This document shows, one piece after another, positions 46,801 to 63,815 of a DNA stretch of 64,000 bases. The DNA is taken from positions 1,612,001 to 1,676,000 of the forward strand of contig NZ_CP007201.1 of the NCBI RefSeq assembly GCF_000568815.1. The letters are read 5' to 3'. The notes beneath the pieces are model-generated. The model saw nothing but the letters and a program-made list of their open reading frames with translations, was not told the DNA's origin and did no database searches. Position numbers and translations under genes: made by a program. Positions within the stretch are counted from its first letter, which is position 1. Each line of letters starts with the position of its first letter. Origin of the DNA: Sulfurospirillum multivorans DSM 12446 (lineage in GTDB: Bacteria > Campylobacterota > Campylobacteria > Campylobacterales > Sulfurospirillaceae).

Positions 46801-46809
46801 ACGTTACAT

Positions 46810-46834
46810 GTAAAGGGGTGAAATTCCCCTTTAC
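46810..46834. terminator. Bidirectional terminator between RND and 46838 gene
   Basis: GTAAAGGGG (46810-46818) pairs with CCCCTTTAC (46826-46834) around TGAAATT. Its left arm begins inside a GTTACATGTAAA palindrome (46803-46814). Genes converge here. Confidence 0.8.
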
Positions 46835-46837
46835 GCC

Positions 46838-47050
46838 TTATTTATTGCGTTTGCGATCTTTCTTGACTTGCTTCGCTTTGGCTTTTGCTTTGGCTTTTTG
46901 AGCATCGCTCGGTTTTGCTTTATCCGAGTTTACCGCTCCAACATTGGTCTGTTTTCCCTCGTAAGGAACGGTATGCTTTTGGAGTGTTGCTAGACCTGCA
47001 AGTTTGTAACCATTTTCCATTTTAACGCTATTGTTGAGTAATCCACCCAT
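46838..47050 (-). CDS. Small basic hypothetical protein
   Basis: 70 residues. The N-terminal half is neutral (MGGLLNNSVKMENGYKLAGL); the C-terminal half is a Lys/Ala repeat (QKAKAKAKAKQVKKDRKRNK) typical of nucleic-acid-binding tails. No family recognised. AAGGAC precedes the ATG on the minus strand. Stop abuts the bidirectional terminator. Confidence 0.55.
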   Translation of the reverse strand: MGGLLNNSVKMENGYKLAGLATLQKHTVPYEGKQTNVGAVNSDKAKPSDAQKAKAKAKAKQVKKDRKRNK

Positions 47051-47156
47051 ACTATGTCCTTCATGATAATTAAATGTGATTGGAGAAAAATCGTTGAGAG
47101 TTTCGTAACGATAAGCGCTATTATACTTTATCCTTGCTTTAAGCCATGTAAAAGCG

Positions 47157-47231
47157 TTTACATGTAAAGAAGAGGGCTCTTTTTTCAGCCTAATTGATTA
47201 CAATATCGACGACTATTTTTTTACATGTAAA
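47157..47231. repeat. Two TTTACATGTAAA palindromes between divergent genes
   Basis: Perfect 12-mers at 47157-47168 and 47220-47231, 63 bp apart (about six helical turns). They lie in the 190-bp gap between the basic protein (minus) and the small HTH-like protein (plus), the second only 9 bp before the start codon and covering the likely ribosome-site region. Confidence 0.85.
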
Positions 47232-47240
47232 AGGGAACGT

Positions 47241-47540
47241 ATGTTAGAGCAAAACCTCATAACGATGCAACAGTACGCCGTAAAATACAAAATGAGCACC
47301 TTTGGCGTTGTGAAATTGGTCAATGCCAAAAAACTTAAAACGATTAAAAAAAACGTGGAGGGCGAAGAGCGTGAGTTTATCATTGATGAGACAGTTCCAA
47401 GTTTAAAACCTCTCAAAAGTGAAACACCCACAGAGTCAAACGATGAGACAACAATGAACTACGAGGTCGAATTTCACAAACTTTTAGCCAAATACATCGA
47501 ACTTCAAGACAAATACACGAAGCTGATTGAGTCTAACTAA
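47241..47540 (+). CDS. Small HTH-like hypothetical protein with coiled-coil tail
   Basis: 99 residues. ITMQQYAVKYKMSTFGVVKLVNAKKLKTIK looks like an excisionase/MerR-type helix-turn-helix with wing, followed by a short linker and a helical C-terminus (FHKLLAKYIELQDKYTKLIE). Probably a DNA-binding protein, target unknown. GGGAACG lies before the ATG. Confidence 0.6.
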   Translation: MLEQNLITMQQYAVKYKMSTFGVVKLVNAKKLKTIKKNVEGEEREFIIDETVPSLKPLKSETPTESNDETTMNYEVEFHKLLAKYIELQDKYTKLIESN

Positions 47541-47561
47541 GAAACATTACATGTAAACAGA

Positions 47562-53656: not shown

Positions 53657-54268
53657 ATGAAAAATTGGTTTATCATAAAAGCTGGAACTGATTACGAAGA
53701 CATCAATTCAGCATTAATTGAAGTCAACGAAATACTATGGAAAACATGTATCTTTTTTATCATCGTAATTATCGCACTTGTCATTGGATACTTAAATTTA
53801 AAAGATACCGTCACTGTAAATGTTGAAATGCCGTCAACTATTTATCAATCCAAAGATCTCACAATTAGACGTGGGCTTAACTGGGCAGACGCTTCATACT
53901 ATGATGTTTGGGGTAGATACTTAGCAGATGAAATGACCAACTTTGAGGCAGGAGATATAGCACACAAATACGCAATTTTACAAAAAATGATGCGCCCCTC
54001 TCTTGCAATTAAAAAAGATGCCCAAATCCAAGAATTTGTAAAAAATATCGTTACCAACAAGATCAAACAAACGTTCACAATTATGCAAGCATCTGAACCA
54101 CAGGAACTTGAGAAAAATAAATTCAGACTAATCTATAACGGCATTTCTCAGATATCAATCGGTACTAAGACTATGCCCAAAAAAGAATGTCATTTTGCGG
54201 TTGATTTAAAAATATACGATGATGGAGTTTTATATGTTGAAGATTTCGGCACTAACTGCTTACAGTAG
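53657..54268 (+). CDS. traE: F-type T4SS protein TraE
   Basis: 203 residues: short cytoplasmic N-terminus, membrane helix CIFFIIVIIALVIGYLNL (31-48), then a periplasmic VirB8-like fold (SYYDVWGRYLADEMTNFEAG...). Inner-membrane scaffold of the pilus apparatus. GAGGAGG precedes the ATG. Its end overlaps traK by 35 bp. Confidence 0.8.
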   Translation: MKNWFIIKAGTDYEDINSALIEVNEILWKTCIFFIIVIIALVIGYLNLKDTVTVNVEMPSTIYQSKDLTIRRGLNWADASYYDVWGRYLADEMTNFEAGDIAHKYAILQKMMRPSLAIKKDAQIQEFVKNIVTNKIKQTFTIMQASEPQELEKNKFRLIYNGISQISIGTKTMPKKECHFAVDLKIYDDGVLYVEDFGTNCLQ

Positions 54269-55121
54269 CATTATCGCTCTTGCTTTGATAACAAGTCAAG
54301 CTCAGGCTAAGGACATCCCTATTGTGCGTAAAATCACTTTTTTGCTCCCTCTAAAAGAGTTTAGCACTATTGAGTTTCCTTTTGAAATAAAAAGCCATGA
54401 TTTTACGCCATTTGTATCTTTATCATCTGCTAGTGCGAATAAAGATGGTTTGACTGACAATCATTCTTCAAGCGAATCTCAGGATTACGCATTACCAAGC
54501 CTTGATGATAAAAAAAATCCTATGCAGGCAACACCAAATGGGCTAAAGCAAACTTCTTCCACGCCACCATTGCCACCTATGAATGGCAATAAAAAACCGA
54601 TCGAATGGCAAAAAGGAGGAAATTTTTTCAAATTCTATCCTCGCAAAGTCGGTGAAACGCAACTGATTGTTTTTGGATACGAAAAATACCCCATTATTAT
54701 CAACTTAAGTGTTGTAGAAAATAAAGATGATGTGCAGGATAGTGTTTACAAATTTGTAGATTATGAAGCAAAAAAAGATGTTGCTCAAAAATTTGAGTCA
54801 ACCAATCATGATAAAGTCGTTGTAGGTATCACGAAATCACTTTACAACAATGAGCCCCCAAAGGGATACGAGGTTATATCAAAGCAAGGCGAATTTACGA
54901 GTCAAGGGTTGCATTTTCGTTTAATAAAAGAATTCCAAGGCAAGAATTATTCAGGTGTCGAATACATTATGCAAAATACAACAAAAGACACGATCAATAC
55001 TGATGCAGGAATCTTTAAAGGACAAAAAGGAATCTATGGTATTACCTTTGTCCACGACATCTTAGAACCAGGAAGAAGCACGCGCTTATTCATCGTGAAA
55101 CAAAGGGGAGCAGATGATTAA
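54234..55121 (+). CDS. traK: F-type T4SS secretin-like protein TraK
   Basis: 295 residues from the ATG at 54234, chosen for its GGAG and because it opens a clear signal peptide MLKISALTAYSSIIALALIT ending AQA. A VirB9/secretin-like body follows, interrupted by a Pro-rich linker (PPLPPMNGNKKP). The C-terminus has YGITFVHDILEPGRSTRLFI. It should form the outer-membrane part of the channel with TraB and TraV. Overlaps traB by 8 bp. Confidence 0.75.
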   Translation: MLKISALTAYSSIIALALITSQAQAKDIPIVRKITFLLPLKEFSTIEFPFEIKSHDFTPFVSLSSASANKDGLTDNHSSSESQDYALPSLDDKKNPMQATPNGLKQTSSTPPLPPMNGNKKPIEWQKGGNFFKFYPRKVGETQLIVFGYEKYPIIINLSVVENKDDVQDSVYKFVDYEAKKDVAQKFESTNHDKVVVGITKSLYNNEPPKGYEVISKQGEFTSQGLHFRLIKEFQGKNYSGVEYIMQNTTKDTINTDAGIFKGQKGIYGITFVHDILEPGRSTRLFIVKQRGADD

Positions 55122-56736
55122 TCCCTTCAAAAAAGGTTCTATCTATGATCGAGATGTAGATGAAAATACTTTACCTAATGCAGATCCCGATCAAACAAAA
55201 AATTCTTTAATGAACTTCACAGATAAGGCATTAGAATTATTAAAAAAACTGAATAAATTCTCTGTTCCAAATGACCAAAATAAAAATTCTGAAATGGATG
55301 CTTTAGCTGAATTATCTACGCTTGATCAAAAAGTGAGTGACATTAGAAAAAAAACATTACAAAGAATTTTTGGTGTCATGATGTTTCTTTCCTTTGGCCT
55401 TTTCCTTATTTTTGTATTTGCCAAATGGGGCTTATTCATGTGGCGTGATTCTAAACGACCAGAGGTAGAAACCAAAGTTCAAGAACTCAAACTTGAAGTC
55501 AATCCATTAAATAAATGGCAAGAGATCAAAGATCAGCAAATTAATCAATTAGGTGAAGATATTAAAAAAGTCGAAGCTAACGTTGATAAAAAAATGAATG
55601 AAGTGCAAAACACCATTTCTTCAGAACTTAATGATACAAAAGCCAGTGTGACACAAAGTCTTGTGGTTTTACAAGAGGCAAATAAGCAAACCATAACTGA
55701 TGCCCTCTCTGATATTAAAAATGAGATTAAGAGCATCGGTGATGATGCAAAACAATATACCGATCAAAAAAACTTAACAATTTCAGAAAAAATTGCTCAA
55801 ATTGAATCAAGAAAAAAAGACACTAATACCTCTTCTTTAGACTACAGCAAACTATCTCTCCCTCCACTTCCACAAATGGAGGGGAAACAAGGAGATATGT
55901 CACCAAGTCAAATACAACAAAAATTAGCTCAAATCAATCAGAAGCCTCAATATGTCGAGGATGATATCAACGACAATTCTGCACCTCTTAATTTTTCTAC
56001 AATGACAATAGAAGACAATAATACCACTATTGTTATGCCAAAAATGACCATGATGGCTGGTGTACAAAGAGCGACACTTGTCGCTGGTGCAGATGTTCCA
56101 ACACTTCAAAAAGGAAATGATCTAACCCGTGTTGTGTGGCTTTCAACTTCTGGTGAAATGCTTATATCAAATGGTCACACTGCAAATATCAGAGAGTGTA
56201 TTCTTCAAGCCGCTGCAACGGGAAATTTTGCTACGTCTAGTGCAGATATTAGACTTACTAAAATTTCTTGTTCTGCATTAGATAATGATGGAAAATATTA
56301 CAAACTTGTCGGCAATGTAAAAGGTTGGGTCAATGGAGAAACAGGCAAACAAGGATTAAAAGGTCGCCTTGTAACGAAAGAAGGTGAACTTATTGAAAAA
56401 GCAGTACCTTTAGCAATACTAGAAGGCGCGATTAAAGCATTAGAAAACTCAACGAAAAGCAGTAGCACTGTTTACACTTATCCTGGTGCAACATCCACTA
56501 CTACAGCAGATAATTTAAAAGATTCATTCACAGAAGGAACCACTAAAACTGCATCAACAACGCTTGATAAATTTAGTGATTATTATTTAATGATCTTGGA
56601 ACAACTCAACCCAACAATTGAATTAAAAGCAGGTAGAGAAGTCTCAATATGGTTTGAAGGTGGTGAACAATTAACCATGGAAGAATACACACCACTTGAT
56701 GTTGATTATTTTGAACACAAAGGATTTGAGCAATGA
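55114..56736 (+). CDS. traB: F-type T4SS protein TraB (VirB10-like)
   Basis: 540 residues: cytoplasmic N-terminus, one membrane helix (MFLSFGLFLIFVFAKWGLFM, about 90-110), a coiled-coil with Ala/Asn/Lys repeats, a Pro-rich stalk (LSLPPLPQMEG) and the VirB10-like C-terminal domain (TLVAGADVPT, ANIRECILQAAATG). Spans inner to outer membrane. Overlaps the following lipoprotein gene by 4 bp. Confidence 0.88.
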   Translation: MINPFKKGSIYDRDVDENTLPNADPDQTKNSLMNFTDKALELLKKLNKFSVPNDQNKNSEMDALAELSTLDQKVSDIRKKTLQRIFGVMMFLSFGLFLIFVFAKWGLFMWRDSKRPEVETKVQELKLEVNPLNKWQEIKDQQINQLGEDIKKVEANVDKKMNEVQNTISSELNDTKASVTQSLVVLQEANKQTITDALSDIKNEIKSIGDDAKQYTDQKNLTISEKIAQIESRKKDTNTSSLDYSKLSLPPLPQMEGKQGDMSPSQIQQKLAQINQKPQYVEDDINDNSAPLNFSTMTIEDNNTTIVMPKMTMMAGVQRATLVAGADVPTLQKGNDLTRVVWLSTSGEMLISNGHTANIRECILQAAATGNFATSSADIRLTKISCSALDNDGKYYKLVGNVKGWVNGETGKQGLKGRLVTKEGELIEKAVPLAILEGAIKALENSTKSSSTVYTYPGATSTTTADNLKDSFTEGTTKTASTTLDKFSDYYLMILEQLNPTIELKAGREVSIWFEGGEQLTMEEYTPLDVDYFEHKGFEQ

Positions 56737-56969
56737 AAAAAATCTATTTAACTCTGTTATTTATCCCTTTACTTTTTACAGGCTGTATCGGAAAGATAAT
56801 CAACATTGGTGAAGAAAAAGGCTACTGCGAAGAGAACGGATGCGATTACTCCGACGCAGGTATTTGTGGTGACGCATATTTACTCTTTAAAAATAAGAAA
56901 AAGGTTGCATCGACAGCTTACCAAAATATTCAATGTGATTGTGCAGGAGAATTTGATGTCAAAAAATAA
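56733..56969 (+). CDS. TraV-like N-terminal cysteine-module lipoprotein
   Basis: 78 residues. Lipoprotein signal LLFIPLLFTGC, lipid cysteine at 17, then CEENGCDYSDAGICGDAYLLFKN, the spaced cysteines and Gly-x-Cys of the TraV N-terminal module. It is much shorter than TraV (about 170-200) and ends before the C-terminal domain, which appears in the next gene. Overlaps traB and the next gene, so it is an integral part of the operon. Confidence 0.6.
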   Translation: MKKIYLTLLFIPLLFTGCIGKIINIGEEKGYCEENGCDYSDAGICGDAYLLFKNKKKVASTAYQNIQCDCAGEFDVKK

Positions 56970-57453: not shown

Positions 57454-58020
57454 ATGGAAGAACTAATGACTAAACTTGATCTCGCTAAAGCCATTGGTGT
57501 ACACAGGACAACAATCACGCATTGGGTTAAAAGCGACAAAATTCATCCTGAACCGAAGCAACAAGGTAAACCACAACTTTTTTCTTATCGTAAAGTCATG
57601 ATGGAATTAGGCAGAGAACCTAAAGAGTTTTATACCTTGATCTACTTAAGTGATGTTACATGTAACGAATTCACACCAGAGGAAGAGTTGCGTTTATTAA
57701 AAAACTTCTGTGTGGGTAATGGTTGGAGATTTAAAATCATCATAGACTCCATACTAAGTGCAAATTCAAATGAGCTCTTTAAAGCATTGCTGAGTGGTTG
57801 CGTAGAGCGAATGATTATCTCATCAATGAGTTCAATTGGATTTGTTGAGTTCAAATATCTCAAATCGCTTTGTGATGAAAAGCTAATACCCATTATTCCC
57901 TTACAACAAATCACAAATGAAACACTTGACTTTTGTAAGCATGCAATTTTGGTAGTAAAAAAACTTGCTGGTACCAATGAAGAAATCCTAGAGGACATAA
58001 GAAATGAATTCTGTAAATAG
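57454..58020 (+). CDS. IS607 TnpA-like MerR-HTH protein with degenerate serine-recombinase domain
   Basis: 188 residues: MerR-like HTH (TKLDLAKAIGVHRTTITHWV, residues 5-24, plus wing to about 50), then a resolvase-like domain. Aligning to the IS607 pattern YARVSS, this protein has YLSDVT, so the Ser nucleophile and neighbouring Arg are lost; the later DRLARFGF-type motif reads SMSSIGFVEF. Helix FKALLSGCVERMIISS and the LCDEKLIPIIPL end are clearly of the fold. No transposon ends seen. Likely a domesticated DNA-binding protein of the tra operon; contains the only TACATGTA of the element (57655). Confidence 0.75.
   Translation: MEELMTKLDLAKAIGVHRTTITHWVKSDKIHPEPKQQGKPQLFSYRKVMMELGREPKEFYTLIYLSDVTCNEFTPEEELRLLKNFCVGNGWRFKIIIDSILSANSNELFKALLSGCVERMIISSMSSIGFVEFKYLKSLCDEKLIPIIPLQQITNETLDFCKHAILVVKKLAGTNEEILEDIRNEFCK
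57655..57666. repeat. Single TACATGTA palindrome in the element
   Basis: GTTACATGTAAC, in frame in the IS607-like gene. Only one copy was found after 49.6 kb. Confidence 0.8.
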
Positions 58021-58498
58021 AGCGTTCAAATTCCTAATTACCGCCCTTCTCTTTTGGTTGTTAATAAATTTATTTATTGCGGCACACTCACCATTGATCC
58101 CGAGTATTACAAAATTACTTGCACATGTACCAATGGAGCTCCTCATGTTTGTCACATTAGGTATTAGCGCAATTCATTATATTAATGAAGATACCTTTCA
58201 AACACTCATTAGTGCTATAAATTTGAAGAATCGTAAATCGATGAAACAATCGCTACCTATTCTAAAAAATCTTCCCAAAAAAGACAAAGTATTAATGGTC
58301 GCATTGATCACCTATATTGTGGCTCTTTTACTGACAACAGGGGCGTTGCTTTCAGTTTTTTTCTCACTTAGAAATACTTTTTTTATGTGGGTTTTTTATG
58401 TGTTATCACTTGCAGTTATTTCACTGGTCATCAAAAAAATAATCGCTTCTTGGGCAGACCACTATCTCAATTTTCCAGAGACAATGAGGAGTAAATAA
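58004..58498 (+). CDS. Small membrane protein upstream of traG
   Basis: 164 residues, four hydrophobic segments (about 9-28, 42-60, 101-121, 124-143), basic cytoplasmic loop between (KNRKSMKQSLPILKNLPKKDK). No family recognised. Overlaps the IS607-like gene by 17 bp and shares TAATG with traG. Confidence 0.6.
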   Translation: MNSVNRAFKFLITALLFWLLINLFIAAHSPLIPSITKLLAHVPMELLMFVTLGISAIHYINEDTFQTLISAINLKNRKSMKQSLPILKNLPKKDKVLMVALITYIVALLLTTGALLSVFFSLRNTFFMWVFYVLSLAVISLVIKKIIASWADHYLNFPETMRSK

Positions 58499-61400
58499 TG
58501 TTGATGAAATTTGCCATTTTGGTTTCACTTTTTATTGTAAATGCAAGTGCTTACACCATTGATACTTCAAGCACTTCGGTGTACCGAAAAGATTTTGGTA
58601 TTTTTGTCTATGGGGATATTGAAAGTATAGAAAACGCATTTATTTTAATTCAAGCTGTTTCAACCAGTAGCAAGCTACAAACGATTATTGCCCTTTTTAT
58701 GCTTTTTTTCTTGCCTTACACTGCCTATAAAATGAGTTCCTCTGGAACATTTAAACCATTGTTCACAAATTTAACCTATGTAACAGCAAGCATCCTTACT
58801 ATGTCAACGGCTACAGTTCCATCTGCTTCCATGCACATAGAAGATTTACGGACAGAAACGATCTACGCTGGATTACCTGCGCAAACATACGCGAAGATTG
58901 ATAATATCCCCTATCCTATTGCATTAGTGACCAGTACGGTCTCAACAATAACTGATAGCTTAATGATACTCTATGAAGATGCAACAGCATTATTAAAACC
59001 TGATTTGGCTAGTGCTTCATCTACAGCTATTGGATCAGGCAATGCAATTAATGACCTTATAAAAATTTTACAATTTAGCTCATTTGATAGATCGAATGAT
59101 GAAGCCACAAATCTCTTTGTACGCTCCTTCACTGCCTATGTGGAACAATGTGGTTTAAAGCAAGCATTGAATGTTAACCCAGATCTTGTCATCAATTTTA
59201 AAAACCCATCAAAGGATCTTTTTAAATCAATTGATCCATCAAGTTTAGGTATTACAGGAAGTTCTTATACACTCAGTTTCATCGACTCAATAAATGGTGA
59301 AAAAAGCTATCAATGCGATGTTTTTTGGAATAATAATGTCATTTCTCATTACTCGACCATTGCCGCAAAATTAAAAGAAAGGCTAAGTAAAGTTCTAACT
59401 GGGAACCTTAATTCACCTGATGTTGTACACTCCTATTTAACGCTTGGTGGAACAATCAACGATACTGTTATCTCCAGTGAGATTGGCAAGATGGATGCCT
59501 TCATCATCAATGCCGCATCAAGAGCACCTTTAAGTAAAGCATTTGCCAATACTGCAATCGATATGTCTTCAGGTCAAGATTTAGCGAATAGAATCACAGC
59601 AGGAGCATCGTTGGCTGAAATGCAAATGCAAGGTGCAGGACAGATGAAATGGGTATCTGAAGTCTTGCCTTTTGGGTACCACTACATGTTAGGAATCATT
59701 TACTCAATATCCATGTTAGTGATGATAGTGGCTACAGCATTTGGATATGAAAAAGGTTTTGTCATTTGGAAAAACTTCACAAAAGGTCTTACAACCTATG
59801 AATTCATCAAAATATCGCTCGTACTTGTAAATTCAAGTGTCAATCAATATACCTCAAAACATGCCGCGGATTTTATAGCTTCACTCGGATCAAACCCTGC
59901 GACAGTAGATTCAATTCCTTATTACTACAACTATATGGCAACGATGTCAGGTGTAGCAGGTACACTTGGAGTAATTGCCATTTTATCAATCCCTGCAATG
60001 GTATTTAGCGGTGAAGTATCTATGGCAATGAGCGCATTAGGTTCAATCGCGGGTAAATACAAAGGTAATGATACAAGAACAGCACAGGAAGTCACTGCTG
60101 AACAAAAATCAAAACAAGAAGCTTATGAGCGAGAACTCCAAGATCAAGCGATGCTTGATCATTTAGGCATATCGGCACCCGCAGGTATGGGAGCCTCTGA
60201 GTTTTACAGCATGTACAAAAAAGGTGCAGAAGTCGCAAATTCAAGTTGGGGTGCTCAGCGAATGGGTACTAATGCCTTAGCTGATGCGGGTTTAGCTATT
60301 AAAGGTCAAACCATGCAAGGCATCAGTGCAGGGGCAACATTAGGAACACACACCGCGATGGGTGAGTTTGTATCATCGGGTGTATCAGGCGGTTTACGTC
60401 ACTCAGGTGGCATTAAAGGAGAGGGAAACGCTCTAGCAGACTTTGGAGAAGATTCGATAATGCTTTCAGCAGAGTTGGGAGCATATACGCAAAGTGCAGA
60501 GGGTGTCAAAATGACAGAGGGGCGAGTTAATGCAGGTCTTGCGAATGGCTCGGATGGAAGATTAACCTCAAAAGCTCTCAAAAGCATGGGTAGACGAGCA
60601 GGGTTTGACTCCGCAAATTTAGCGGCTATGGCAGATGCAAAATATACTGATAAAAATGGTAATGCGCTAACGGATGAAGATGCCTTTGCACTCAGAGGTA
60701 AAGCCGCCGCAGGACAATCCGCAGAAATGCCGATAAAAGATGCCGCTTACATCAAAACTGCCATGGATTCGAGTGGAGGATTGAATCACAAATACGCTTC
60801 AGGTCTCGGAACATCAGAAGAAGCAAAATTTGCTTCGGTCAAAGGGGTCGGTGCGCTTTCAAGTGCGAATCAAGATAGGTATGTCAAAGCTTCAGAGAAT
60901 GCATCTACTATTAAAGCAGCTCAAACCATTGGTGATACTGAAGGACAGATGAAGCAGTATGGTGATGAAGCCAAAAAAGCAGGAAAAGAGCTCGCTGATG
61001 TTATTCGTGATGTTGCTAATACCGTTGCACAAGGTAAAACAGCATCAACATTTGGGTCAATTGAAGGTGCTGGTGGAGCACAAGGTTATATTGATACATC
61101 AAGACGAAAAGCATCTGCTGATATGAGTGCGCTTACCACGACAATGAGTACTGCGGATAAGGAATATGTAGGTGGATATGAAGCTTTTGTAAAAGACAGC
61201 GCAATGGTAAGCGCTGAACAAAGTGTTGGTAATGTTGGTGGTCTATTAAATACTCCAAAAGAGCATAGAGCAAGTTTCATTCAAAAAGCATTAGAAAAAG
61301 CAGAAAAAGATGGCAGGTATGACGAGGTTAGATCAGATTTCGAGAGAGCTGGATTAGTGGACAAAAATGGTGTTGCAAATCCTGATAACTGGATTAGTGG

Positions 61401-62985
61401 CACTTCATTTCTCAAAGCAAACAATATGAACGCTCATAATGCACTTGTTGCTGGCGGCATGGTGTTTTCAGGGGCATTAGGCGAAAACGCAAGTGTTCAA
61501 GCTTCTTCATTGAGTAGCTTGACGTCAGGGGATAAAACTACCGTAGATAATCAGAGTATTGAAAAAGGTGGTGCAATCTATGACATAAGCAGTGATAAGT
61601 TGCAAAAAGTCATAGCATTTAATATGCACCAACAAGCTCACAGTGGAAAACAAATATCTTACGATAAAGCAACTGGTAAATTTAATATGCCAGATAAAGA
61701 AACTGCGCAAGAATTTGCAGATTTCACAGGAGATGCAAATTTAATTAAAAATACTAGACAAAATGCGTTAGATGAAACGTTAGCGGAAGTAGCTGATTTC
61801 TTAGGTGTAAGTCCAACTGGGATTGTTGCAGGAGTGGGTGGAACAGCTGTTGGATTAGGGGGAATAGCCCTAGGAAGGCAATTAGGGCTATCTGGCAAAA
61901 AATCTGAAATAAATAAAGCTGGAGATAAAACAAAACAATCCAAAACCAATGATGTAGATTCCCAACATGGTGGCTCCTTTCACGATGATATAAAAAATTA
62001 TACCGAAGAATATGGTGCAAGTAAAGAGCTTTTTGACAAAGAATCACGAAATTTGGATGATTTAAAAGGACAAAGAGGACGCATTGATGATGACCATCCA
62101 AGAGCGCATAAATTAGATGAGCAAATTGCTGAGAGTGAAAAACGTATGGGTGAGCATAAAAATGACATGGAAATTGCAGATAGGAATGTAAAGGCAACTA
62201 AACATCTTGCAACCCAAGATATTCATGCAAAAGCATCTCACTCTAAATTCGGGTTTTTAGGTCAGGCGTTAACCTCTATTGCTGCTTCAGTTGGTATTGC
62301 AAATGCAGGTGAATTTGGAGAAACACTCGAAAACACAATGAATGCCATAGATCCTATGAGCAATTTATTAATTGGTCAGCCTCTTGGTGCAGGGAGTGAC
62401 ACTTTTAAACCTATGAGCGCTCAAAGACAAGATATAAAAAATATTCCAGTTATGACCTTAAATGCCGCACAAAATGATTCAGGACTTGCTCCAGCAATTG
62501 ATGAATATAACAGTCAACAAAACGTATCAGCATTGCAAAAAATGCAACCAAACACTATCGCAACCATGCAAACAAGAGGCGGAGAAATGAGTTTAATGAA
62601 AAACTCTAAATCAGGCAATTTAGATATCCATTTACCAGGGCAGTCTTTTGCTGAAAACACAGGTATCCCCTACTCTAACTTTCAAGATTTTATGAGTAAT
62701 CCTGCACAAGCTCAACAATTTGCACAAATGGCCGCAAAAAGCAACTTTGATGGACAAAGTGGTGGTGGTGTAGCAAGTGCTACGGATATGGAACAACTTA
62801 AAAATGAAATGAACACAAATTTTCAACGTAGCACCGTGCAAACAATGAATTTACGTTCTAGCACTTCAACGTCTGCTATGGAAATTGAAAATACACGCGA
62901 AATTATTGAAGACCAATTAACTTCGTCCATTGATTCAATTGAAGAGACATTGGAAGACGTTCAAAAACGCTTAGAAAGGCGGTAA
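58498..62985 (+). CDS. traG: TraG-like mating-pair stabilisation protein
   Basis: 1495 residues. Signal-like N-terminus (LMKFAILVSLFIVNASAYTI), several membrane segments up to about residue 530 (among them HYMLGIIYSISMLVMIVATA and TLGVIAILSIPAMVF), then a very long Ala/Gly/Ser/Lys-rich hydrophilic part with coiled-coil propensity. TraG N-termini take part in pilus assembly and entry exclusion; the C-terminus stabilises mating pairs. It is longer than F TraG (about 940). Confidence 0.8.
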   Translation: MLMKFAILVSLFIVNASAYTIDTSSTSVYRKDFGIFVYGDIESIENAFILIQAVSTSSKLQTIIALFMLFFLPYTAYKMSSSGTFKPLFTNLTYVTASILTMSTATVPSASMHIEDLRTETIYAGLPAQTYAKIDNIPYPIALVTSTVSTITDSLMILYEDATALLKPDLASASSTAIGSGNAINDLIKILQFSSFDRSNDEATNLFVRSFTAYVEQCGLKQALNVNPDLVINFKNPSKDLFKSIDPSSLGITGSSYTLSFIDSINGEKSYQCDVFWNNNVISHYSTIAAKLKERLSKVLTGNLNSPDVVHSYLTLGGTINDTVISSEIGKMDAFIINAASRAPLSKAFANTAIDMSSGQDLANRITAGASLAEMQMQGAGQMKWVSEVLPFGYHYMLGIIYSISMLVMIVATAFGYEKGFVIWKNFTKGLTTYEFIKISLVLVNSSVNQYTSKHAADFIASLGSNPATVDSIPYYYNYMATMSGVAGTLGVIAILSIPAMVFSGEVSMAMSALGSIAGKYKGNDTRTAQEVTAEQKSKQEAYERELQDQAMLDHLGISAPAGMGASEFYSMYKKGAEVANSSWGAQRMGTNALADAGLAIKGQTMQGISAGATLGTHTAMGEFVSSGVSGGLRHSGGIKGEGNALADFGEDSIMLSAELGAYTQSAEGVKMTEGRVNAGLANGSDGRLTSKALKSMGRRAGFDSANLAAMADAKYTDKNGNALTDEDAFALRGKAAAGQSAEMPIKDAAYIKTAMDSSGGLNHKYASGLGTSEEAKFASVKGVGALSSANQDRYVKASENASTIKAAQTIGDTEGQMKQYGDEAKKAGKELADVIRDVANTVAQGKTASTFGSIEGAGGAQGYIDTSRRKASADMSALTTTMSTADKEYVGGYEAFVKDSAMVSAEQSVGNVGGLLNTPKEHRASFIQKALEKAEKDGRYDEVRSDFERAGLVDKNGVANPDNWISGTSFLKANNMNAHNALVAGGMVFSGALGENASVQASSLSSLTSGDKTTVDNQSIEKGGAIYDISSDKLQKVIAFNMHQQAHSGKQISYDKATGKFNMPDKETAQEFADFTGDANLIKNTRQNALDETLAEVADFLGVSPTGIVAGVGGTAVGLGGIALGRQLGLSGKKSEINKAGDKTKQSKTNDVDSQHGGSFHDDIKNYTEEYGASKELFDKESRNLDDLKGQRGRIDDDHPRAHKLDEQIAESEKRMGEHKNDMEIADRNVKATKHLATQDIHAKASHSKFGFLGQALTSIAASVGIANAGEFGETLENTMNAIDPMSNLLIGQPLGAGSDTFKPMSAQRQDIKNIPVMTLNAAQNDSGLAPAIDEYNSQQNVSALQKMQPNTIATMQTRGGEMSLMKNSKSGNLDIHLPGQSFAENTGIPYSNFQDFMSNPAQAQQFAQMAAKSNFDGQSGGGVASATDMEQLKNEMNTNFQRSTVQTMNLRSSTSTSAMEIENTREIIEDQLTSSIDSIEETLEDVQKRLERR

Positions 62986-63142: not shown

Positions 63143-63197
63143 ATATGAGGACAAACCGCATTAATGCCCTTTTTTGGGTTTGTCCTTGTCCTCATAT
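63143..63197 (+). promoter_or_regulatory. Mutually exclusive inverted repeats ahead of the replication gene
   Basis: ATATGAGGACAA (63143-63154) is the perfect complement of TTGTCCTCATAT (63186-63197). The overlapping GGACAAACC (63149-63157) can instead pair with GGTTTGTCC (63177-63185). Only one pairing can form at a time, 19 bp before the start codon at 63216. This layout suits copy-number or translational control; the function is inference. Confidence 0.6.
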
Positions 63198-63215
63198 GAA
63201 GCAAAAAGGGCAAAA

Positions 63216-63815
63216 ATGAAATCAAATATGTGTATTCCTTGGTTCAAATTAAACCAAGATTTTTTTAAAGATCGTTTATCCCAAAAAATGCTTTTACAAG
63301 ATAACGGGCATGAAATGATGTGTTCATATCTACAAATGCTCATTCTTTCAGGTAAAAATGATGGAGAAATTCATGTTGACATTGAAGAATTATCAATATC
63401 TGAACATCTTACTATTGCACTTGATACACAAAGTGAAGTAATTGACAAGTTGCTTTTATTCTTAAATAACAATCATGCTATCAAATATGTAAATGATGTA
63501 TGTATTGAAATGACACTATATAAAGATTGTTTAAAATCTGGCTCTGAATCCCTTCATCGAGTGCGTAAACACAGGACAATAAAACAAAAAAAACATAGTA
63601 ACGTTACTGAAACGTTACGTAACGTTACGTCAACAGATTGTAACGTTACAGATGAAGCAAATGCCCTAAATACCGAACTTGATGTCAATAGTCCAATTAG
63701 TGAAGATAATCAGTACTCTACTCCTGAATGTAACGTTACTGAAACGTTACATAGCCCAATATTACCAATCATTGAAGTTATTTATGAAACCCCTAATGAG
63801 GAGAAAGGCAAATGA
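63216..63815 (+). CDS. Phage/plasmid replisome-organiser-like replication protein
   Basis: 199 residues from the ATG at 63216 with AAGGG upstream. The first 120 residues (CIPWFKLNQDFFKDRLSQKM, MCSYLQMLILSGKNDGEI, TLYKDC) resemble the N-terminal domain of phage replisome organisers and Lin1244-like proteins. The rest is a low-complexity linker that reads NVTETL twice, encoded by iteron-like palindromes, so protein and DNA repeat coincide. Overlaps the next gene by 4 bp. Confidence 0.65.
   Translation: MKSNMCIPWFKLNQDFFKDRLSQKMLLQDNGHEMMCSYLQMLILSGKNDGEIHVDIEELSISEHLTIALDTQSEVIDKLLLFLNNNHAIKYVNDVCIEMTLYKDCLKSGSESLHRVRKHRTIKQKKHSNVTETLRNVTSTDCNVTDEANALNTELDVNSPISEDNQYSTPECNVTETLHSPILPIIEVIYETPNEEKGK
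63598..63750. repeat. Iteron-like GTAACGTTAC palindromes inside the replication gene
   Basis: GTAACGTTAC occurs at 63598-63607, 63619-63628, 63640-63649 and 63730-63739; AAACGTTAC occurs at 63610-63618 and 63742-63750. The 21-bp block at 63598-63618 is repeated exactly at 63730-63750. Such clusters inside initiator genes commonly mark replication origins. Confidence 0.8.

Follow-up and report, generated by a model that had tools for sequence, protein, structure and literature searches.

An open reading frame in the F-type tra operon of Sulfurospirillum multivorans DSM 12446 encodes a protein (hereafter, P0001) that descends from an IS607-family transposase (TnpA) of the Campylobacterales type, as shown by profile and direct sequence comparisons. 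Alignment with the family also showed that the residues needed for DNA cutting have been lost. We put at about one half the probability of the whole explanation proposed here, namely that this TnpA descendant now works as a DNA-binding dimer that regulates or organises the DNA of the element in which it lies. Positions given without a locus label refer to the window, a stretch of 64,000 nucleotides of contig NZ_CP007201.1 (Table 1).

The gene lies where the original prediction had placed it, inside an F-type operon between the TraV-like lipoproteins and TraG, with tra genes as its neighbours. The predicted ORF is present, with 188 codons on the plus strand and a frame open throughout, and its codon usage is of the coding type and matches that of the tra genes around it, scoring 0.16 where no other frame exceeds -0.10. 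The ATG is preceded by AAGAGG. Coupled overlaps to the neighbours had also been claimed. This is correct for the downstream side, where the 3' end of P0001 overlaps the membrane protein gene by 17 nt (and the stop of that gene overlaps the traG start), but not for the upstream side, where a 9-bp gap follows the second lipoprotein gene (stop 57444, start 57454). Genes resembling TraC and TraD, and more ORFs of conjugation type, follow beyond the window; they were named by reading, most of them without a profile test. Towards the distal end of the conjugation genes, a 400-aa ORF (L046:18317-19519) resembles, by reading, IS256-type (mutator) transposases.

Table 1. Positions in the window of P0001, its domains and the surrounding tra genes.
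Feature	Position	Strand	Remarks
TraE, TraK and TraB genes	53657..56736	+	Mark the F-type operon upstream of P0001 (Pfam/NCBIfam)
TraV-like short lipoprotein	56733..56969	+	Conserved at 41-54% identity in three related elements
Second lipoprotein, upstream of P0001	56950..57444	+	Homologues in related elements
P0001, 188-aa IS607 TnpA-derived protein, catalytically dead by its residues	57454..58020	+	Between the TraV-like lipoprotein pair and the membrane protein/TraG
P0001, N-terminal winged HTH (MerR/Xis/BldC-like)	57457..57624	+	Residues 2-57
P0001, serine-recombinase-like core	57628..57915	+	Residues 59-154, b-a-b-a-b-a-b
P0001, C-terminal helical hairpin	57916..58017	+	Residues 155-188, where IS607 has helix E; modelled with low confidence (pLDDT about 50)
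164-aa membrane protein	58004..58498	+	25% identical to a traG-adjacent protein of a Malaciobacter mytili plasmid
TraG-like protein	58498..62985	+	33% identical to an M. mytili plasmid protein annotated as TraG N-terminal domain

The IS607-type origin suspected from the sequence was borne out by the HMM searches. P0001 was matched by the IS607 TnpA profile NF033518 of NCBIfam (E 1.3e-6, 28.1 bits, residues 10-154) and by PHROG 6620, annotated as transposase (E 1.7e-10, residues 8-152). These profiles cover both domains of the protein, with a match over positions 3-156 of 187 in the profile, and the score of 28.1 bits is below the curated family cut-off of 110 bits. When 298 genomes of the class were scanned with NF033518, full IS607 TnpAs scored 160-224 bits and were set apart from fragments and from resolvase-type matches lacking the HTH. 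P0001 was the sole match below 50 bits that starts in the HTH, all others beginning at profile position 19 or later. The order of its domains, with an N-terminal HTH followed by a serine-recombinase domain, was seen in the profile match, the direct matches and the structural model alike, and it is the inverted order of IS607, not that of canonical serine resolvases and invertases, which have an N-terminal catalytic domain and a C-terminal HTH.

Among 399 genomes of the order, the closest relatives are intact Campylobacterales IS607 TnpAs (best E 1.8e-11, 26% identity over residues 1-159), with direct matches spanning E 1.8e-11 to 4.7e-10. Matches to P0001 (E 2e-7 to 2e-11) were found in four other genomes of this set, and by reading all four carry IS607 TnpAs with YARVSS. 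Also by reading, these relatives have DRLLRFG wherever their sequence extends over that region (one copy is cut off by the end of its contig), and ORFs resembling TnpB are located behind TnpA in these loci. The two plasmid matches (H1 and H2) are likewise intact IS607 TnpAs. The recombinase half alone retrieved the same Campylobacterales TnpAs (best E 2.2e-6 at Z 1e5). Scored with a model made from close IS607 recombinase domains, it reached 18.8 bits. The best of 20,000 shuffles scored 14.7 bits and none reached the score of the real sequence, which excludes chance similarity. An earlier model of the recombinase domain, built from more distant IS607 rows, was moderately significant, with 6 of the 20,000 shuffles scoring as high. 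Domain-only scans of the core named the IS607 transposase alone (NCBIfam 0.095, PHROG 0.029).

The MerR-like HTH and resolvase-type fold that had been read from the sequence were recovered by structure prediction. With seven viral IS607 TnpAs in the input alignment, the model had a pLDDT of 73 and a pTM of 0.55 and showed an N-terminal HTH and a serine-recombinase core; since IS607 sequences went into it, the fold is supported, not independently proven. The single-sequence model was poor (pLDDT 36), and its core nevertheless had the expected order of strands and helices. The best match in the PDB was the core of ISC1926 TnpA (Z 11.2, 2.7 A over 90 residues, VIA-align), and other serine recombinases trailed it by no more than 1 Z unit. 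Residues 2-55 matched the HTH fold of small MerR/Xis-like proteins. In the helix E region, C-terminal helices were predicted at residues 150-172 and 176-187. Foldseek also listed LacI-type repressors and other Rossmann-like folds; LacI-type and other Rossmann-like chains at Z 7-10 in the fold comparison were set aside as sharing a common arrangement.

The catalytic residues were compared in a profile alignment with 30 IS607 TnpAs. The arginine of the YxR motif is Asp67 in P0001, and the position of the catalytic serine is occupied by Thr69, or by Val68 if a one-residue insertion is disallowed. The KDRLxR motif reads MSSIGF at residues 125-130 (M125-F130), and the GSG/KG loop is shortened, part of it being missing. 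Both catalytic motifs (YxRVS and KDRLxR) are thus absent from P0001 but intact in its nearest relatives. The segment YLSDVT in the nucleophile position and the missing catalytic arginines, on which the original prediction was built, are real. The HTH has changed as well, with 'TLR' of IS607 replaced by TIT (its arginine changed) and 'RRY' of the MerR wing replaced by QLF. These changes suggest that the DNA specificity of P0001 is probably altered. The 'LAGTN' turn of the C-terminal hairpin was aligned with 'LYGSR' by MAFFT.

P0001 was found in one genome. No orthologue was detected in 397 genomes of the class, 399 genomes of the order, or the plasmid or phage collections, and TraG-anchored scans found nothing. 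A pattern search revealed no close orthologue in genome or viral contigs, nor was there one in the genomes of the genus. A look for orthologues between traV and traG in other Campylobacterota elements had been suggested; the related tra operons of three other genomes (G037, G240, which is the M. mytili plasmid, and G420) have other genes there and lack a homologue of P0001 in this slot. The M. mytili plasmid has a 151-aa hypothetical protein (L015:11348-11803, minus strand) of no significant family and without convincing similarity to P0001, and in the other two the slot is occupied by a different short protein. As these three elements do without it, P0001 is an accessory and not a core tra component. 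Its own genome has no TnpB above the cut-off and no detected intact IS607 TnpA. A companion tnpB is frequent in IS607 transposons, though not universal, and to our knowledge the ends of these transposons have no terminal inverted repeats.

How such a protein might have arisen and now act can be outlined from what is known of active TnpAs. The architecture of the dimer has been described (PMC4058570). On direct repeats, dimers of IS607-family TnpA bind with cooperativity and extend into a filament, and on these repeated motifs the active sites are kept off the DNA, in a conformation that does not permit chemistry (PMC6188088). As the filament forms in a chemistry-free state, binding and assembly are separable from catalysis, and loss of the chemistry could leave a DNA-binding dimer. 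An IS607-family TnpA gene would have landed in the tra operon unaccompanied by TnpB, and selection would have held its fold and reading frame as the catalytic residues disappeared. We infer as most likely that P0001 dimerises, binds DNA and has a regulatory role: its HTH would contact sites on the element, the dead core and C-terminal helices would keep the subunits together, and the protein would repress or tune the element's own promoters or coat a short stretch of DNA, adjusting transfer or maintenance. A more specific proposal is offered tentatively. In it, a bacterial serine transposase was exapted through its chemistry-free cooperative binding and, no longer catalytic, forms nucleoprotein complexes by which it regulates or maintains a conjugative element. 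Counting against a regulator are the changed TLR and RRY residues, the restriction to one genome, the related elements that manage without P0001, and the phased-repeat scan, in which no TnpA-type phased site array was found in the tra intergenic regions.

A competing possibility, which we consider unlikely, is that P0001 is a non-functional passenger, a captured and inactivated transposase gene kept open by translational coupling to the membrane protein and traG genes. Its presence in a single element fits this, and with a 17-nt overlap with the downstream gene, frameshifts or premature stops could have polar effects. The divergence of P0001 speaks for selection. In a midpoint-rooted tree its branch has about 5.8 changes per site, versus 0.2-0.4 for the nearest intact relatives; it was placed beside the Campylobacterales TnpAs, a placement made unsure by the long branch. 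Neutral drift simulated to 26% identity left 12 stops on average, and none of the 2000 runs stayed open (the simulation ignores indels, and counting them would make the test stricter). Since the frame of P0001 is open at this divergence and the neutral runs never were, selection probably acted on the protein for most of that divergence. Moreover, the pattern of the core and HTH fits the profile over 150 residues, and coupling alone would not keep a fold. A decaying pseudogene was rejected, as the frame is open after roughly saturating divergence, and the word 'relic' used in the original prediction is for the same reason disfavoured in the sense of decay. We regard P0001 as probably a selected inactive derivative, its sequence coming from one genome.

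A role in replication or partition is somewhat less probable again. Here P0001 would bind a phased repeat array, or a centromere near a ParM-like gene, and aid maintenance. The sole strongly phased array in the scanned stretch consists of six 10-bp repeats (GTAACGTTAC/GAAACGTTAC) at 63598-63750, mostly 10-11 or 21 bp apart where adjacent, and the rest of the 3.18 Mb genome has no copy of the exact GTAACGTTAC motif. The array looks like an iteron-type origin, and sits about 5.6 kb downstream of P0001 inside a replisome-organiser gene (Phage_rep_org_N, 63174-63815). Arrays within such genes are usually binding sites of the gene's own product, as in phage-type origins. The repeats are thus more simply read as belonging to the replisome organiser than as a target of P0001, to which they have no direct link. 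The helical spacing does recall the TnpA of IS1535, an IS607-family protein whose binding sites are 9-bp direct repeats set in helical phase (PMC6188088). Nearby on the same side, beyond the window, a ParM-like gene (L045:16883-18106, minus strand; phrog_691 partition protein, E 4e-17) adjoins a 97-aa gene, which suggests plasmid-like maintenance. Elsewhere in the window, the palindrome TTTACATGTAAA or near copies of it occur several times at 46804-47561, between an AcrB-type efflux gene and a FIST/MCP gene, and are possible candidate operators.

It is improbable that P0001 is a dominant-negative inhibitor of IS607 transposition, mixing with active TnpA or occupying its ends and so shielding the element or host. 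Dead subunits often inhibit oligomeric recombinases, and the class commonly carries intact IS607 TnpAs (19 of the 298 genomes exceed the family cut-off), but none was detected in the genome of P0001, and its 26% identity to the nearest TnpA, with changed wing, recognition residues and helix E, makes mixed dimers or shared sites unlikely. Convergence, in which an HTH protein of unrelated origin, with a C-terminal domain of Rossmann-like fold, came to resemble TnpA, is the least credible reading, for the LacI-type and other Rossmann-like folds listed by Foldseek and the poor single-sequence model are outweighed by the collinear match over both domains (E 1.8e-11) and a recombinase domain that is significant alone.

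P0001 resembles several known systems in part. In the open-access literature we found no account of a catalytically dead IS607 TnpA that has been retained by a bacterial operon. Domesticated TnpB derivatives are also transposon-derived proteins turned regulators (a putative role for P0001), but they descend from TnpB and are RNA-guided, whereas P0001 comes from TnpA. BldC, phage Xis and the terminase small subunit HTH resemble residues 2-55 in fold; unlike small proteins of the BldC/Xis type, P0001 has an additional recombinase-like core. Poxvirus F16, a 'predicted inactive serine recombinase' (PMC11980589), is likewise a retained relative of serine recombinases, although it belongs to a eukaryotic virus and the likeness to P0001 is one of description. 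The IS607-family TnpAs themselves (OrfA; NF033518; PDB 6dgc, 3lhk and 3ilx) have the same unusual domain order and gave the best PDB match for the core, but P0001 differs from them in lacking the catalytic serine and arginines, in its shortened loop, its altered wing and helix E, the absence of TnpB and its location in a tra operon. If the proposal is true, it shows that a serine transposase can be recruited for its DNA-binding and assembly half while its chemistry is left behind, and P0001 would be a small protein with which to test such recruitment.
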